Position numbers and translations under genes: made by a program. Shown piece after piece: positions 41,347-45,803 of a DNA stretch of 64,000 bases; position 1 is the stretch's first letter; each line of letters starts with the position of its first letter. Source of the stretch: Bacteroidales bacterium (GTDB lineage Bacteria > Bacteroidota > Bacteroidia > Bacteroidales > UBA10428); NCBI GenBank assembly GCA_016929525.1, contig JAFGIP010000067.1, forward strand, positions 62,001 to 126,000, given 5' to 3'. The notes beneath the pieces are model-generated. The model ran no database searches. It saw nothing but the letters and a program-made list of their open reading frames with translations, and was not told the origin of the DNA.

Positions 41347-41718
41347 AATTAATATATGAGTATACTAAATTAGAAAAATGTTCAATCTTAATCGATGAAT
41401 GGATATTAATTAACTCCAAGGCTACTACATTATTTTCCCTGACGTAATAAATATAATCATAGTAATTTATGCGCTTTGATCAATGGGATAGCCCTTTGTT
41501 ATTCAAACTGTAATTATAGAAAACGCAAATTAAGAACTATCCATATAAAAATCCTGGTTATTCTTAAAAGTAAATCAGAGATTTCTGGTTTATCGGAGCT
41601 GAGCTATATCTTTTTATTTATTCTTTTAAATGTATTCCTGTTATTAAAAATTCATTATTACTTTGGCAACTATTACCTGTATATAAAATCAATACTATCA
41701 TAATGATTATTTAAAGAT
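41347..41718. other. Intergenic region with a partial repeat copy
   Basis: No supported gene. A 75-codon frame at 41476-41703 runs through the repeat and resembles nothing. The useful content is the 25-bp repeat copy at 41572-41596 with the tRNA-like sequence after it. The 3' side borders the broken DGC gene. Confidence 0.5.
41572..41596. repeat. Partial copy of the hairpin element found at 45600-45683
   Basis: These 25 bases are identical to 45658-45682. They are followed by AGCTGAGCTA, where the other copy has GACTGAACTA; both resemble the complement of a tRNA D-arm (TAGCTCAG). The left hairpin of the element is missing here, so this copy is truncated. Confidence 0.6.
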
Positions 41719-42086
41719 TCAGATTATTTCAGCTTTTTCATACACCTCCTTGATGGTTTTCTCTGTACTTGGTGTCTTTCCTTTCTAATAGCCCAAATCA
41801 GTAAGCCGTAGATACATGTAATTAATTCCTATCATGACCATTATTTTCTTCCCGCAATCTTCATTGCAACCATCAATAACAAGAATATTACTATTTTTAA
41901 ATTCATCTATTATTTCTTTTGTCCCGGTTGCTGCTAAAGTCAAACAATTCATCTTTCTCACATTATTTCTTGATTGTTTTCGTGCAACCTGATCTGAAAT
42001 ATATCCAAGGTCTGATGCCCCCGAACAAGCAAGAATAATGTATTGATTTATACTGCATCCACAGGTTGGTTTTTCATTTTTTTCAT
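41719..42086 (-). pseudogene. Broken DGC-domain (putative zinc-binding) gene at the end of the ars-like operon
   Basis: On the minus strand this region encodes a DGC-domain protein (PF08859 type): CGCSINQYIILACSGASDLG, DQVARK, RKMNCLT, ILVIDGCNEDCGKK and LRLTDLGY. Two lesions are visible. The ATG at 42086 is followed by a run of seven A; one more A would give MKKNEKPTCGC in frame, so 1 nt is missing. A TAG also interrupts the frame after DLGY, with readable sequence (KGKTPSTEKTIKEVYEKAEII) continuing to TGA at 41719. No other in-frame start exists. It begins 21 bp after the permease stop. Confidence 0.72.
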
Positions 42087-42107: not shown

Positions 42108-43424
42108 TTATAGATCTCCGTAAATAAAACCCGTAATTGTTGCCATAATAATAACAAGTATTACATAAATAATGGTTTTTTGAGTACCAAGGACTCCACG
42201 TATCACAAGCATATTTGGTAACGACAAAGATGGCCCTGCCAAAAGTAGAGCCAGTGCCGGGCCTTTACCCATTCCGGCTGCAATTAATCCCTGTAAAATA
42301 GGTACTTCGGTAAGTGTGGCGAAATACATGAAAGCCCCAACAATGGAGGCAAAGAAATTGGAGAATACCGAGTTGCCACCAACCAGTTTAGCAATCCATT
42401 CATTAGGGATTATACCGGCCATTACAGTGCTGTCATGTGTTGATCCAAGCAAAAAACCGGCAATAACCACTCCTATGGCCAGTAATGGCATAATCTGTTT
42501 AGCAAAATCCCATGAGGATAGTGCCCATTCCCTGTTCTCAGGCTCTCTTTTATCGATAATGGTAATTACACTGACCGCAGCAATTCCAATTACCATAGGG
42601 ATTAGGGGCGAAGGACTGAGAAATGCCGAAACTGCAATTATTATAGTTGCCAACATAACATGCTGCCATTTCAATTTAAGGATGTATATCAACGAGAACG
42701 ACAATAAAACAGCAAATGCAGAGGTAATATACCATTTATTAGCCCATAACCAGTACCAGCCTCCATTTGTTACATCATCACCGGGTTTTCCCCAGTTTGC
42801 AAAAACAAGGATCAGCACAAGTGTGAAAAAGTGCAAGGCTGTTTGCCACATGGGACGTTTCTCGGGCATGTCGGGGAAATTGATTTGTTCCTCTTTTTTT
42901 GCCTTTTCTTCTTTTCGATAGATAAGCGACATTACCGAACCAATAACAACAGCAAATACTACTGCCCCGATAACACGGGCAACTCCCATTTTAAAACCAA
43001 GGATACGTGCTGTTAATATAATTGCCAATATATTGATAGCTGGCCCGGAATATAAGAAAGCGATTGCCGGTCCTAACCCTGCTCCTCGTTTATGAATACT
43101 TGAAAACAATGGCAAGATGGTACAACTGCAAACTGCCAGTATTGTACCCGAAACCGAAGCCACTGTGTATGCCAGCCATTTTTTTGCTTTTGCTCCAAAA
43201 TATTTTATTACAGCACCCTGACTGACAAACACGGCAATTACACCAGCAATAAAAAATGCAGGTAACAGGCATAGAATGACATGTTCCTGCGCATACCATT
43301 TGGTAAGGTCAAACATGGCCAAAACGGCCTCTTTGAACCTATCGCTTTCCAAGGGCATAAAGAAAGCAAAGATGAATATTACTACTATCCATGATAATAT
43401 TTTAATTTCTTTTTTCCACTCCAT
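42108..43424 (-). CDS. Permease of the ArsP_1/PF03773 family
   Basis: A 438-residue polytopic membrane protein with about 10-12 helices. The family signature VCSCTILPLFSSIHKRGAGLGPAIAFLYSGPAINILA is present, including the Cys-Ser-Cys of metal(loid) exporters in this group. A second copy-like segment, MYFATLTEVPILQGLIAAGMGKGPALALLLAGPSLSLPNML, lies near the end. Relatives export organoarsenicals or are found in arsenic operons. The operon context supports that, but the substrate is inferred. An operator palindrome lies 33 bp upstream. By eye the gene has higher GC than its chromosomal flanks. Confidence 0.85.
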   Translation of the reverse strand: MEWKKEIKILSWIVVIFIFAFFMPLESDRFKEAVLAMFDLTKWYAQEHVILCLLPAFFIAGVIAVFVSQGAVIKYFGAKAKKWLAYTVASVSGTILAVCSCTILPLFSSIHKRGAGLGPAIAFLYSGPAINILAIILTARILGFKMGVARVIGAVVFAVVIGSVMSLIYRKEEKAKKEEQINFPDMPEKRPMWQTALHFFTLVLILVFANWGKPGDDVTNGGWYWLWANKWYITSAFAVLLSFSLIYILKLKWQHVMLATIIIAVSAFLSPSPLIPMVIGIAAVSVITIIDKREPENREWALSSWDFAKQIMPLLAIGVVIAGFLLGSTHDSTVMAGIIPNEWIAKLVGGNSVFSNFFASIVGAFMYFATLTEVPILQGLIAAGMGKGPALALLLAGPSLSLPNMLVIRGVLGTQKTIIYVILVIIMATITGFIYGDL

Positions 43425-43456: not shown

Positions 43457-43476
43457 TGTTCGCTAATTAGCGAACA
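43457..43476. promoter_or_regulatory. ArsR-type operator 3 (before the permease gene)
   Basis: A perfect 20-bp palindrome: TGTTCG, CTAATTAG, CGAACA. It lies between the ArsG-like stop (43492) and the permease ATG (43424) and has the same TGTTCG-N8-CGAACA layout as the sites at 44878 and 45216. Confidence 0.65.
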
Positions 43477-43491
43477 GTTTCTGTAAATTTT

Positions 43492-44193
43492 TTAGAAATA
43501 AATTATAACAACATAATAGCTCCCTATTCCAATAAATACAAGAGCAATTACCCTTCGAAACCAGATTTCAAAGATTTTAAGCCGGTGATATAATTTCCCA
43601 ACCCCCGAAACGGTAAAAGCCAGTAACCATGCAAAAATGATAACCGGAATACCTGTTGCAAAAGCAAACACAATTGGAAGAAATAAGCCCGATGCACTGC
43701 TTATGGTCATGGGAATTAACATCCCGAAATATAAAACACCACTATATGGACAAAAAGCAAGTGCAAACAGTATTCCTAATAATAGGACTTCCCAATAACT
43801 ACTGATGCCATTTTCCTGAAATCGTTTTGTAAGGTAACTCATTCCCGGAAATTTAATTTTCAATATGTCAAGCATGAATAAACCAATGATGATCAACAGG
43901 GGGCCAATAATTTTTTCACCATATTGCTGGAACCATCCCGACAATTTAAATTGGTCGGCACCGATAAAAATAATGACTGCCAGTATTGTATAGGACAATA
44001 CCCTGCCTAAGGTATAAACCAATCCATTGATAAATACTTTCTTCTGATGCTCAATGTCTTTGCTTATAAAACCGATGGCAGTAATGTTCGTAGCAAGCGG
44101 GCATGGGCTGACAGCAGTCATCAGCCCCAGAACGAATGCAGAAATAAAAGGTAAAGAACTATTACCGATTAAATTATTTAAAGACTCCTCCAT
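43492..44193 (-). CDS. arsG: ArsG-like permease (CcdA/DsbD-related membrane protein)
   Basis: A 233-residue membrane protein with six to seven helices. It is related to the CcdA/DsbD transmembrane domain, with Cys residues in SPCPLATNITAIG and LAFCPYSGVLYFG at the positions used for electron transfer. It fits the group annotated as ArsG, named after Shewanella arsEFG for aromatic arsenicals. Here it may move electrons to the periplasmic ArsF-like protein or export the substrate; the two are not distinguishable from sequence. It lies 5 bp after arsF. Confidence 0.8.
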   Translation of the reverse strand: MEESLNNLIGNSSLPFISAFVLGLMTAVSPCPLATNITAIGFISKDIEHQKKVFINGLVYTLGRVLSYTILAVIIFIGADQFKLSGWFQQYGEKIIGPLLIIIGLFMLDILKIKFPGMSYLTKRFQENGISSYWEVLLLGILFALAFCPYSGVLYFGMLIPMTISSASGLFLPIVFAFATGIPVIIFAWLLAFTVSGVGKLYHRLKIFEIWFRRVIALVFIGIGSYYVVIIYF

Positions 44194-44198
44194 TAGTA

Positions 44199-44606
44199 TT
44201 ACAATAGCGGGTCGATTTTTTCTTTGATTATTGCTTTGAGTTTATCGGGATTACTGCGGGCATTCATGAACCCTTCGTTGGTAATATTGATTTTTGTATC
44301 GCCCGCCACAATTAACAGAGTTTGTCCTGATACTTCCAACTCATCTCCTTTGGTTTTTCCGATATCTTCATCAAGATTATAATCCGTAAAACTTACTTTA
44401 TCGCCGTACAACTCAGCTATAGCCTTTTTTGAAACACTTTCTACAGCATTGCAGGTAGCGCATCTACGGGTATAATGAAAATAATGCACTTCAACTTTGT
44501 CAGCTTGGGATAATTTTATTTCTTCTTTTTTATTGGTTTGTGCTGAGCAAGAGCTGTTTATATACAAAGCTACCAATGCGAAAAACATGAGTTTAATTGT
44601 CTTCAT
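44199..44606 (-). CDS. arsF: ArsF-like periplasmic thioredoxin-fold (lipo)protein
   Basis: A 135-residue exported protein. The signal sequence ends in NSSC at residues 16-19, a possible lipobox, so it may be a lipoprotein. The mature part has a CATC redox motif (HYTRRCATCNAVESV) in a thioredoxin-like fold (SFTDYNLDEDIGKTKGDELEVSGQTLLIV). This matches the ArsF family, named as a subunit of nitrophenyl-arsenical reduction. Its place between a cytoplasmic thioredoxin and a CcdA-like membrane protein suggests a thiol relay. The biochemical role is inferred. Confidence 0.78.
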   Translation of the reverse strand: MKTIKLMFFALVALYINSSCSAQTNKKEEIKLSQADKVEVHYFHYTRRCATCNAVESVSKKAIAELYGDKVSFTDYNLDEDIGKTKGDELEVSGQTLLIVAGDTKINITNEGFMNARSNPDKLKAIIKEKIDPLL

Positions 44607-44609
44607 ACA

Positions 44610-44849
44610 TTATTGATTTTGAGTTATTAAGTTTTTTATTTCATCCATTTTCGGAACACGACCTGAGAGAACAACTTTCCCATTTATTACCAATCCTGGG
44701 GTACGCATTACGCCATATTCCATTATTTTCATAATATCTTCAACTTTAGAAACATCAGCTATTACATTCATTTCAGCCAATGAATCAATTACCGCTTTCT
44801 CAAGTGCTTTACATTTTGGACATCCGGTTCCGAGTACTTTTATTTCCAT
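44610..44849 (-). CDS. Small thioredoxin/glutaredoxin-like protein (MTH895 type), ArsE position
   Basis: A 79-residue cytoplasmic thioredoxin-fold protein with the redox motif CPKC (LGTGCPKCKALEKAV). Its cis-Pro loop is MRTPGLVINGKVVLSGRVP. It belongs to the small redox-active disulfide proteins of the TM0996/MTH895 type. It is first after arsR, ends 3 bp before arsF and takes the place of arsE in arsEFG-like operons. An operator palindrome lies 29 bp upstream, so it may have its own regulated promoter. Confidence 0.85.
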   Translation of the reverse strand: MEIKVLGTGCPKCKALEKAVIDSLAEMNVIADVSKVEDIMKIMEYGVMRTPGLVINGKVVLSGRVPKMDEIKNLITQNQ

Positions 44850-44877
44850 TTTTCACAATTATTTATTATTCATTCGC

Positions 44878-44897
44878 TGTTCGGGAAACAGCGAACA
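44878..44897. promoter_or_regulatory. ArsR-type operator 2 (before the thioredoxin gene)
   Basis: TGTTCG, GGAAACAG, CGAACA: the outer arms match the other two sites and the centre is imperfect. An overlapping hairpin (TTCGCTGTT 44873-44881 with AACAGCGAA 44887-44895) also exists. It lies between the arsR stop (44914) and the thioredoxin ATG (44849). Confidence 0.55.
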
Positions 44898-44913
44898 TAT
44901 TCTATAAAAAATA

Positions 44914-45213
44914 TTACATCTTTAAGTATTTTTTAAATAACACCTGTGCTTCCGTCCAATTTTCTTTATTAATACAGTATTTAATCTTTGGTCCTTCAAT
45001 TTCACCCTGTATCAGGCCGGCACTTTTAAGTTCTTTAAGGTGTCCTGACAAGGTGGATTTAACAATCGGCAATACCTCGGTTAAATCTCCACTGTAACAA
45101 CAGCTCTGATTAGATAGTAATTCCAAAACATACATACGAATTGGATGTCCCATGGCTTTAGCATACCTGGCCATTTTCCTCTGATCTTCAGTAATTACGT
45201 CTTTATTTGTCAT
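44914..45213 (-). CDS. arsR: ArsR/SmtB-family repressor of the ars-like operon
   Basis: A 99-residue winged-helix repressor. The start of the fold is KMARYAKAMGHPIRMYVLELL, and the recognition helix region is LTEVLPIVKSTLSGHLKELKSAGLI. A vicinal cysteine pair, SCCYSGDL, near the alpha3 helix could bind As(III) or a similar thiophilic ion. ATG at 45213 is chosen; the in-frame ATG at 45246 lies upstream of the -7 box and would put the operator inside the coding region. The operator ends 3 bp before this start, so it likely represses its own gene. Confidence 0.88.
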   Translation of the reverse strand: MTNKDVITEDQRKMARYAKAMGHPIRMYVLELLSNQSCCYSGDLTEVLPIVKSTLSGHLKELKSAGLIQGEIEGPKIKYCINKENWTEAQVLFKKYLKM

Positions 45214-45215
45214 TA

Positions 45216-45235
45216 TGTTCGGTAAATACCGAACA
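45216..45235. promoter_or_regulatory. ArsR-type operator 1 (arsR promoter)
   Basis: TGTTCGGTA and TACCGAACA are perfect 9-bp arms around AA. The site overlaps the end of the -7 box and stops 3 bp before the arsR ATG, an ideal position for autorepression. Confidence 0.75.
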
Positions 45236-45241
45236 AAGGTA
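45234..45241 (-). promoter_or_regulatory. Putative arsR -7 box
   Basis: On the minus strand it reads TACCTTTG, matching the Bacteroidota TAnnTTTG element. Its last two bases are the first two of operator 1, so bound ArsR would block initiation. Confidence 0.5.
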
Positions 45242-45460: not shown

Positions 45461-45470
45461 TCTTATCAGG

Positions 45471-45544
45471 CTCCCCAGGTAGGACTTGAACCTACGACCT
45501 ACGGATTAACAGTCCGCCGCTCTAACCAACTGAGCTACTGAGGA
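45471..45544 (-). tRNA. tRNA-Asn (anticodon GTT)
   Basis: A 74-nt cloverleaf on the minus strand. Acceptor arms TCCTCAG and CTGGGGA pair with one G-U. The D arm is GTAGCTCAGTTGGTTAGAGC, the anticodon arm GGACTGTTAATCC has a central GTT, and the T arm contains GTTCAAGTC. The discriminator base is G, as expected for Asn. The CCA is not fully encoded. A hairpin terminator follows, and a decayed partial copy lies upstream. Confidence 0.95.
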
Positions 45545-45587
45545 ATTTATAAATAAAAATAATCGTCAGTCTAATTTTAGCAAACAT

Positions 45588-45703
45588 CGCTCTAACCAAT
45601 GCCGAAAATCATGAAATTTTATTTCAAATGATTTTCGAGCATCCTCGATAAACTATGAAATCAGAGATTTCTGGTTTATCGGGACTGAACTACTGAGGAA
45701 TTT
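45588..45703 (-). pseudogene. Split remnant of a second tRNA-Asn 5' half
   Basis: 45588-45599 is identical to 45518-45529 of the intact tRNA gene. 45684-45703 matches 45529-45548 with one change. The two pieces would join into a tRNA-Asn 5' half, but 84 bp of hairpin sequence separates them inside the D arm. The anticodon and 3' half are not recognisable, so no functional tRNA is made. Confidence 0.6.
45600..45683. repeat. Two-hairpin palindromic element inside the tRNA remnant
   Basis: Hairpin 1: CGAAAATCAT (45603-45612) with ATGATTTTCG (45628-45637), plus inner GAAAT/ATTTC pairing. Hairpin 2: CGATAAAC (45646-45653) with GTTTATCG (45674-45681), plus inner GAAATC/GATTTC. Part of hairpin 2 recurs exactly at 41572-41596. 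No transposase is present, so this looks like a REP- or MITE-like element. Confidence 0.6.
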
Positions 45704-45803
45704 TGAGCCAGCAAAAATATGCGGAAAACTTCAATTATGCAATACAATTCTTTAGTTTTTTGGAAAAATTAGCTTACTTCGAAAAGTATCATTAAACTAA
45801 ATA

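Follow-up and report, generated by a model that had tools for sequence, protein, structure and literature searches.

Three copies of one palindrome in a Bacteroidales ars operon: very probable ArsR operators, two of them candidate roadblocks behind stop codons

Why would the same 20-bp palindrome be present three times in a single operon? The question is raised by a 64,000-nucleotide stretch of DNA from a Bacteroidales bacterium (GenBank assembly GCA_016929525.1, contig JAFGIP010000067.1, positions 62,001 to 126,000; hereafter the window, whose own coordinates are used throughout). TGTTCG-N8-CGAACA occurs in it in three exact copies, at 45216-45235 (site 1), 44878-44897 (site 2) and 43457-43476 (site 3), all in one operon that begins with the gene of an ArsR/SmtB-family regulator. 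A sequence-only reading of the window had pointed out these copies and their shared arms and spacing, and this description is borne out. As argued below from comparative sequence data, the three palindromes are very probably operators of the operon's own ArsR. Site 1 would block initiation, and sites 2 and 3 are probably natural ArsR roadblocks, that is, places at which elongation would be blocked.

The palindrome is not a product of chance. No exact copy appeared in 100 dinucleotide-preserving shuffles of the window, compared to the three observed; with two mismatches allowed, the window contained 4 matches and the shuffles 1.13. A pattern search of the whole genome (G000; 4,062,668 bases in 122 contigs) returned the three operon copies as the only exact places, and none for a reversed control pattern. 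Allowing one mismatch added five places for the palindrome and four for the control. In 99 genomes the exact palindrome was found at 36 places in 26 genomes, and a dispersed repeat was rejected because 33 of the 36 are at ars loci. Thirty-two of these adjoin an arsR homologue; in one case only a fragment of it is present, at the end of a contig, and arsE flanks the site opposite. The remaining one, in genome G060, precedes an arsP homologue located behind an acr3-like frame (named by eye). The other three places fall within open frames, and the surrounding 3-4 kb contain no ars gene. The reversed control adds up to 17 places over these genomes, so that the palindrome is, if anything, rare where no ars genes are near. 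The many copies elsewhere that the sequence-only reading had considered were not found.

To count sites in relatives we used the fixed core TTCG-N8-CGAA, which was picked after the sites had been inspected; it was preferred for the later counts because the position weight matrix had been trained on the very sites that it scored. Of 197 relatives searched for ArsR, 162 had a match. The loci comprised 60 stretches, each 3 to 14 kb long, that surround matches, the best 80 of 576 candidates from named genomes, and seven new loci from a phylum sample of 296 genomes, 182 of which had an ArsR match at E 1e-20. Removal of identical arsR DNA left 159 arsR rows, from which 16 rows with less than 52% identity were dropped, so that 143 were counted. 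The core is present at -110 to +10 of arsR in 104 of the 143 (first-order resampling expectation, 0.3 of 143 upstream stretches), between arsR and arsE in 87 of 121 pairs, and within 250 nt behind arsG in 34 of the 101 loci with enough DNA there. When counting is limited to arsR-arsE gaps of less than 400 nt, 74 of 105 carry the core, compared to 0.1 expected by resampling. The coding DNA of arsE, arsF and arsG is not enriched (1/91; 1.6 expected by resampling). The arrangement is common to many relatives, and the gut genera Bacteroides and Parabacteroides have the operator behind arsR.

The protein itself matches NF033788 with 56.7 bits (cut-off 55) and PF01022 with 36.1 bits (cut-off 22). 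Its predicted model, with a predicted local distance difference test score (pLDDT) of 90.8, is a winged helix consisting of helices 9-21, 24-34, 55-64 and 83-97 and a two-strand wing. The best solved folds for this model in Foldseek were SrnR, CzrA and HlyU, with NolR and ArsR also in the list and no E-value below 0.001. In the model, Lys52 is located shortly before the recognition helix, 55-64, and the nature of residue 52 in the homologues is linked to the second base of the half-site. Under Lys52 repressors this base is G in 268 half-sites, A in 52, T in 25 and C in one; under Arg52 repressors it is T in 64, G in two, and A and C in one each. Scored per operon as G versus T at the nearest site, the result is 90 G and 0 T for Lys and 0 G and 28 T for Arg. 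The correspondence between residue 52 and base 2 holds in all 118 scorable operons, in a table that disregards A and C at base 2 and leaves out nine mixed G/T operons, one Leu52, five Gln52 and nine operons without a site. In the Arg operons, 12 of 14 half-sites of the site behind arsR also carry T, and this changed base fits one protein reading all sites. The five Gln52 homologues (L185, L202, L206, L208 and L209) have no TTCG core of their own; L185 merely sits upstream of a Lys52 gene's site.

Residue 52 aligns with Lys50 of RexT and with Gln56 of NolR. The latter alignment was derived from the end points of two HMMER matches and presumes a one-residue gap before residue 52, as in printed HlyU alignments. 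The available portion of PMC8960804 describes NolR Gln56 as contacting a base; it also states that RexT reads a CGAA half-site and that its K50A mutant binds DNA more weakly. Two results count against the assignment. The NolR Gln56Ala substitution, in the same source, changes DNA affinity less than two-fold, and a tree of ArsR proteins with a single Arg clade is not rejected (approximately unbiased test, p 0.80; 98 columns, poorly resolved). Because the Arg repressors can form one clade, the Lys/Arg switch may, as far as this tree goes, have been a single ancestral event. An independent-pairs test of residue 52 versus base 2 yielded one pair on well supported branches and eight on all branches, and cannot reach significance with one well supported pair. 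Taken together, the recurrence of the sites, their specificity for ars loci and the tracking by residue 52 strongly support the proposal that the palindromes are ArsR operators. The link between residue 52 and base 2 also points to a simple way in which ArsR repressors may switch specificity.

Arsenic is probably the inducer, judging from the gene context and from three cysteines, Cys38, Cys39 and Cys80, that are invariant in 34 aligned ArsR homologues. The vicinal Cys38/Cys39 pair presumably falls a few residues ahead of the cysteine positions of E. coli ArsR, and the As(III) site of the window protein may be of a different type.

What distinguishes the three sites is their position in the operon. 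The relevant features, starting from the arsR end, are:

45234-45241, minus strand: -7 box TACCTTTG (TAnnTTTG), sharing the first two bases of site 1
45216-45235, no strand: site 1, operator TGTTCGGTATTTACCGAACA (minus strand), covering the arsR start region
44914-45213, minus strand: arsR, 99 amino acids, ArsR/SmtB family, with matches to NF033788 and PF01022
44898-44913, minus strand: gap of 16 nt from the arsR stop to site 2, holding the tract TATTTTTT
44878-44897, no strand: site 2, operator TGTTCGCTGTTTCCCGAACA (minus strand), stop-anchored
44873-44876, minus strand: third half-site, CGAA, next to site 2 on its 3' side
44610-44849, minus strand: arsE, thioredoxin-like protein of the MTH895/ArsE family (TIGR00412, 112.7 bits, cut-off 62)
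44199-44606, minus strand: arsF, nitroreductase subunit ArsF family (NF040494, 86.6 bits, cut-off 60)
43492-44193, minus strand: arsG, ArsG family efflux permease (NF040495, 309.8 bits, cut-off 200)
43477-43491, minus strand: gap of 15 nt from the arsG stop to site 3, holding the tract AAAATTT
43457-43476, no strand: site 3, operator TGTTCGCTAATTAGCGAACA, a perfect 20-bp palindrome, stop-anchored
42108-43424, minus strand: ArsP_1-family permease gene (PF03773, 239.6 bits, cut-off 32.3)

The genes arsE, arsF and arsG are on one strand, separated by 3 and 5 nt, and all three score above the curated NCBIfam cut-offs; a Pfam search with ArsF gave no match. The ArsP_1 permease passes its Pfam cut-off, and its NCBIfam matches are below cut-off. 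By these gene calls and family matches, the locus is an arsEFG operon that includes a regulator gene, in the order arsR-arsE-arsF-arsG-arsP, and the earlier statement that the sites precede arsR, the thioredoxin gene and the permease gene is confirmed. The distance to the next ATG is 2 nt for site 1, 28 nt for site 2 and 32 nt for site 3. Site 1 does overlap its -7 box (45241-45234), as had been claimed; the 3-bp gap given for the arsR start is a coordinate difference, with 2 nt lying between.

The internal sites keep their distance from the stop codon ahead of them, not from the gene behind them. The arsR stop and the start of site 2 are 14-21 nt apart in 74 of 87 cases (median, 16), and the distance from site 2 to arsE varies from 14 to 3531 nt (87 cases). 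Site 3 behaves similarly: 15-18 nt separate its start from the arsG stop in 27 of 34 cases, and the next permease start follows after 6-385 nt (28 cases in which a start was found). Most internal sites are 15-17 nt behind the preceding stop codon, those of the window 16 nt (arsR) and 15 nt (arsG). Among 47 distinct distal sites, 34 keep the distance of 14-21 nt to the stop of the preceding gene, whatever that gene is: arsG in 27 cases, a second arsR in L127, a BFD-like small protein in L092, L129 and L134, a rhodanese-like protein in L093 and L180, and another gene in L140 (the BFD and rhodanese labels were judged from N-termini, not from model matches). Given that different genes precede the distal sites, the spacing has not been passed on together with the 3' end of a single gene. 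The 13 remaining distal sites comprise six inside a frame of at least 90 codons, one that is 24 nt behind a stop, and six for which no frame of 50 codons ends within 30 nt.

The short gap between stop codon and operator has a composition of its own. T occupies positions +6, +7 and +8 behind the stop in 89, 90 and 77% of 62 site-2 cases and in 78, 96 and 63% of 27 site-3 cases, and at both sites C and G hardly occur from +3 to +7. The corresponding values for T at +6 to +8 are 15-38% behind arsE, arsF, site-less arsG and site-less arsR. A run of at least four T is present in 41/62 cases at site 2 and 13/27 at site 3, as opposed to 3/34 behind site-less arsR, 5/73 behind site-less arsG, 5/116 behind arsE and 18/105 behind arsF; the Fisher p values of 3e-8 (arsR) and 1e-5 (arsG) are only a guide, because the tract tests count related sequences more than once. 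A comparison of 880 distinct ends of open reading frames (ORFs of at least 150 codons, called mechanically in 1.29 Mb) found the A/T tract at 21 of 30 operator-bearing ends versus 23 of 850 others, and at least two of these 23 belong to ars operons as well. The possibility that T tracts follow stop codons in these genomes in general was rejected, the frequency of T being 0.28-0.35 at every position behind the 850 other ends. In locus L096, TTTTTTT behind the arsG stop is followed by a different palindrome, GTTATTTCACGAAATAAC; this arrangement is perhaps, from its sequence, the same module with another operator.

How would such sites work? In the reading we favour, ArsR on site 1 would cover the -7 box and the start region and so repress initiation, including that of its own gene. 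Sites 2 and 3 would be second-line operators within the transcription unit, where bound ArsR would halt polymerase that has leaked past the promoter, just after the arsR or arsG stop. The A/T tract, which is weak and would lie about where the RNA 3' end is, probably aids release. In the absence of inducer, leaky transcripts would reach little past arsR; inducer would loosen ArsR and open the three blocks together. The spacing is consistent with this mechanism. In roadblock work with EcoRI, the active site of the halted polymerase is said to be roughly 14 nt upstream of the bound protein; the RNA would then end within or next to the A/T tract, shortly after the stop codon. According to the accessible text of PMC10310618, polymerase overcomes obstacles more easily when a ribosome trails it, and an operator behind a stop codon would be beyond the ribosome's reach. 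There are also precedents. A second ArsR site behind arsR in an engineered sensor slightly lowered the background (PMC4287715), a biosensor layout of promoter, repressor gene, second operator and output cuts background (PMC4287715, PMC5116461), and a review includes ArsR among roadblock proteins (PMC10310618), each as described in the available parts of these sources. The biosensor and roadblock precedents, the placement of the RNA end and the ribosome being out of reach are among the reasons for favouring a roadblock.

Sites 2 and 3 are perhaps arsenic-gated terminators. A wider reading, which we hold tentatively and give slightly less than even chances as a whole, is that Bacteroidota use an inducer-gated terminator module in which a stop codon is followed by an A/T tract (T at +6 to +8) and, some 8 nt further on, by an operator. 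Pausing would come from the repressor and release from the U-rich RNA end, so that one protein would set both initiation and transcript ends. Such a module could be placed behind any operon gene (arsR, arsG, BFD-like, rhodanese-like), and the third half-site at site 2 would hold the repressor longer.

Several findings weigh against an elongation block. Many DNA-binding proteins are poor roadblocks (PMC10310618, in the text available). Site 2 is present in 80 of 87 Lys52 operons and in 6 of 29 Arg52 operons, and so is missing in 23 of the latter; with site 3 in only 34/101 arsG loci, the layout is not universal. The A/T tract is imperfect, as the incidence of T-runs given above shows for both sites (at best 41/62, and 13/27 at site 3), and it also occurs in 11 of the 13 Lys loci in which site 2 is close to the stop and site 1 is missing. 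The remaining contrary evidence concerns promoter signals, and belongs to the alternative that fares best.

According to this alternative, which we consider unlikely, ArsR controls separate internal promoters for arsEFG (at site 2) and for arsP (at site 3). The Bacteroidota -7 box has the consensus TAnnTTTG. An exact box starting at -12 to 0 of the site was found at 59/104 sites 1, 8/74 sites 2 and 0/27 sites 3 (random positions, 0.2-1.2%), and neither internal site of the window has one. The exact box overlapping site 1 in 59 of 104 homologous sites supports autorepression there, as had been proposed. If one mismatch in TTTG is allowed, the numbers become 71/104, 29/74 and 4/27, with 6-8% at random positions (about 8% for site 2, about 6% for site 3). 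These numbers, with their excess at site 2, speak for internal promoters and against the roadblock, as does the one-mismatch box TATGTTCG at site 2 of the window, which consists partly of operator letters; site 3 of the window has no one-mismatch box. Part of the site-2 excess arises because the operator's own TTCG scores as a one-mismatch TTTG. Further evidence for internal starts comes from Lys operons with site 2 near the arsR stop, which carry an exact box in 5/13 cases without site 1 versus 3/61 with site 1. Internal sites can therefore serve promoters in some lineages, a further point against the roadblock; a full box can occur where site 2 has to act as a promoter, and operons laid out like that of the window usually lack it. 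The G060 operator, which precedes the arsP homologue behind the acr3-like gene, also fits an internal start. Against it stands the anchoring to the upstream stop codon rather than to the downstream gene. The -7-box, T-run and stem-pairing counts exclude sites beyond the stated gap ranges, and one of the 74 site-2 rows is mis-placed in the box and pairing counts (73/74 coordinates check; apparently a two-arsR locus). A scan for sigma-70-type promoters was uninformative (17 matches; 14.0 in shuffles). The sequence-only reading had offered three promoters or a block to elongation; the block fits best, and three promoters are less likely given exact boxes at 8/74 and 0/27 internal sites.

That the internal palindromes act as mRNA hairpins, which would stabilise, process or attenuate the transcript, had also been suggested, and is very improbable. 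Every palindrome can fold as RNA, and the third half-site allows an alternative 9-bp stem at site 2 of the window. An internal hairpin in the ars1 operon of Bacillus CDB3 lowers the long transcript, as demonstrated by mutation in the portion of PMC4562236 available. A conserved hairpin was rejected, in that complementarity of the variable inner pairs of site 2 (7-14, 8-13, 9-12 and 10-11) is no better than in shuffled columns. Pairs 3-18 to 6-15 of site 2 are uninformative because they are practically fixed letters, and these arms track ArsR residue 52. Pair 8-13 at site 1 of Lys operons exceeds all shuffles, and pair 7-14 is weakly raised at site 1 of Arg operons and at site 3; both are also explained by the symmetry of a dimer site. 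A small excess of pairs 4-17, 5-16 and 6-15 and of the alternative-stem partners is probably due to the mis-placed row. The alternative stem shows no consistent co-variation among relatives. An intrinsic terminator was rejected, since the coding-strand T run precedes the palindrome instead of following it; a terminator scan made no coding-strand call at the sites and three weak calls on the other strand, of which two fall at site 2 and one at site 3. A known RNA element was rejected as well, because the Rfam search gave no match other than the tRNA.

In Lys52 operons, CGAA occupies positions 22-25 at 56/68 sites 2, compared to 4/76 sites 1 and 2/25 sites 3, and from this distribution the third half-site would appear to be an extra protein contact. 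In L189, L191, L196, L199 and L178, two full operators are located 26-29 bp apart behind arsR; in these double-operator operons, some of them from Flavobacteriales, the pair replaces one operator and the third half-site.

Equally improbable is DNA looping or an ArsR reservoir, in which the three sites would act jointly without blocking polymerase: three exact operators within 1.8 kb and the extra half-site at 56/68 sites 2 would suit it, and the 15-17 nt anchoring to stop codons and the A/T tract would be left unexplained. Least probable of all is a regulator other than the operon's ArsR. Relatives do carry further ArsR-family paralogues (the 16 dropped rows, with 37-44% identity), but the base-2 class follows residue 52 of the adjacent ArsR, and a core site is absent from the vicinity of 15 of these 16 rows.

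The surroundings of the operon contain some further features. An exact 23-bp direct repeat (minus strand; 41572-41594 and 45658-45680) brackets the ars operon and a tRNA-Asn gene, and has only these two copies genome-wide with one mismatch allowed. The repeat may be the trace of an insertion or duplication by which the ars operon arrived. The tRNA-Asn is at 45469-45544, with partial tRNA-like stretches upstream of it, within 45469-45720 (judged by eye), that might be remnants of tRNA-linked integration. Behind the permease gene lies a gene for a DGC-domain (putative zinc-binding) protein, at 41830-42063, which is out of frame with its likely start; the open piece matches PF08859 with 62.1 bits.

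If sites 2 and 3 are indeed roadblocks, many Bacteroidota naturally use the layout that engineers devised against leaky arsenic sensors, and the stop-operator spacing with the A/T tract offers a concrete, testable design for a protein-gated terminator. There is also a caution in this, as a palindrome behind an operon gene may be an operator and not a terminator. Searches of openly licensed papers for natural or engineered internal ArsR operators and for repressor roadblocks listed no report of stop-anchored internal ArsR operators.

How does the arrangement compare with known systems? It resembles four of them in part. RexT of Nostoc and NolR share the ArsR/SmtB fold with the window ArsR. RexT has Lys at the position of NolR Gln56 and binds ATTCG-N15-CGAAT, again with a CGAA half-site; it senses peroxide, and differs from the window ArsR in half-site spacing and targets (PMC8960804, in the parts available). 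The Bacillus sp. CDB3 ars1 attenuator also has an inverted repeat inside an ars operon, where it splits short and long transcripts; according to the available text of PMC4562236, it is an RNA hairpin between arsC and arsD with U residues behind it, whereas the repeat here is likely a protein operator with the A/T tract in front. PurR, GalR, CcpA, CodY and LacI provide examples of a repressor that stops elongating polymerase from a site downstream of the start, as summarised in the accessible part of PMC10310618. By comparison, the candidate operators here are repeated in the repressor's own operon, at a set distance behind stop codons. The closest parallel is found in engineered arsenic biosensors (Stocker 2003, as cited in the available parts of PMC4287715, PMC5116461 and PMC10310618), which have the same order of promoter, arsR, operator and output. 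Those biosensors were built from E. coli parts, whereas the present arrangement is natural, occurs in Bacteroidota and uses a different operator; it also keeps a set distance from the stop codon, includes an A/T tract and has another operator copy after arsG. The engineered layout, roadblocks and operators are all known already; new, as far as the searches of openly licensed papers show, is the natural, stop-anchored and repeated form with its A/T tract.

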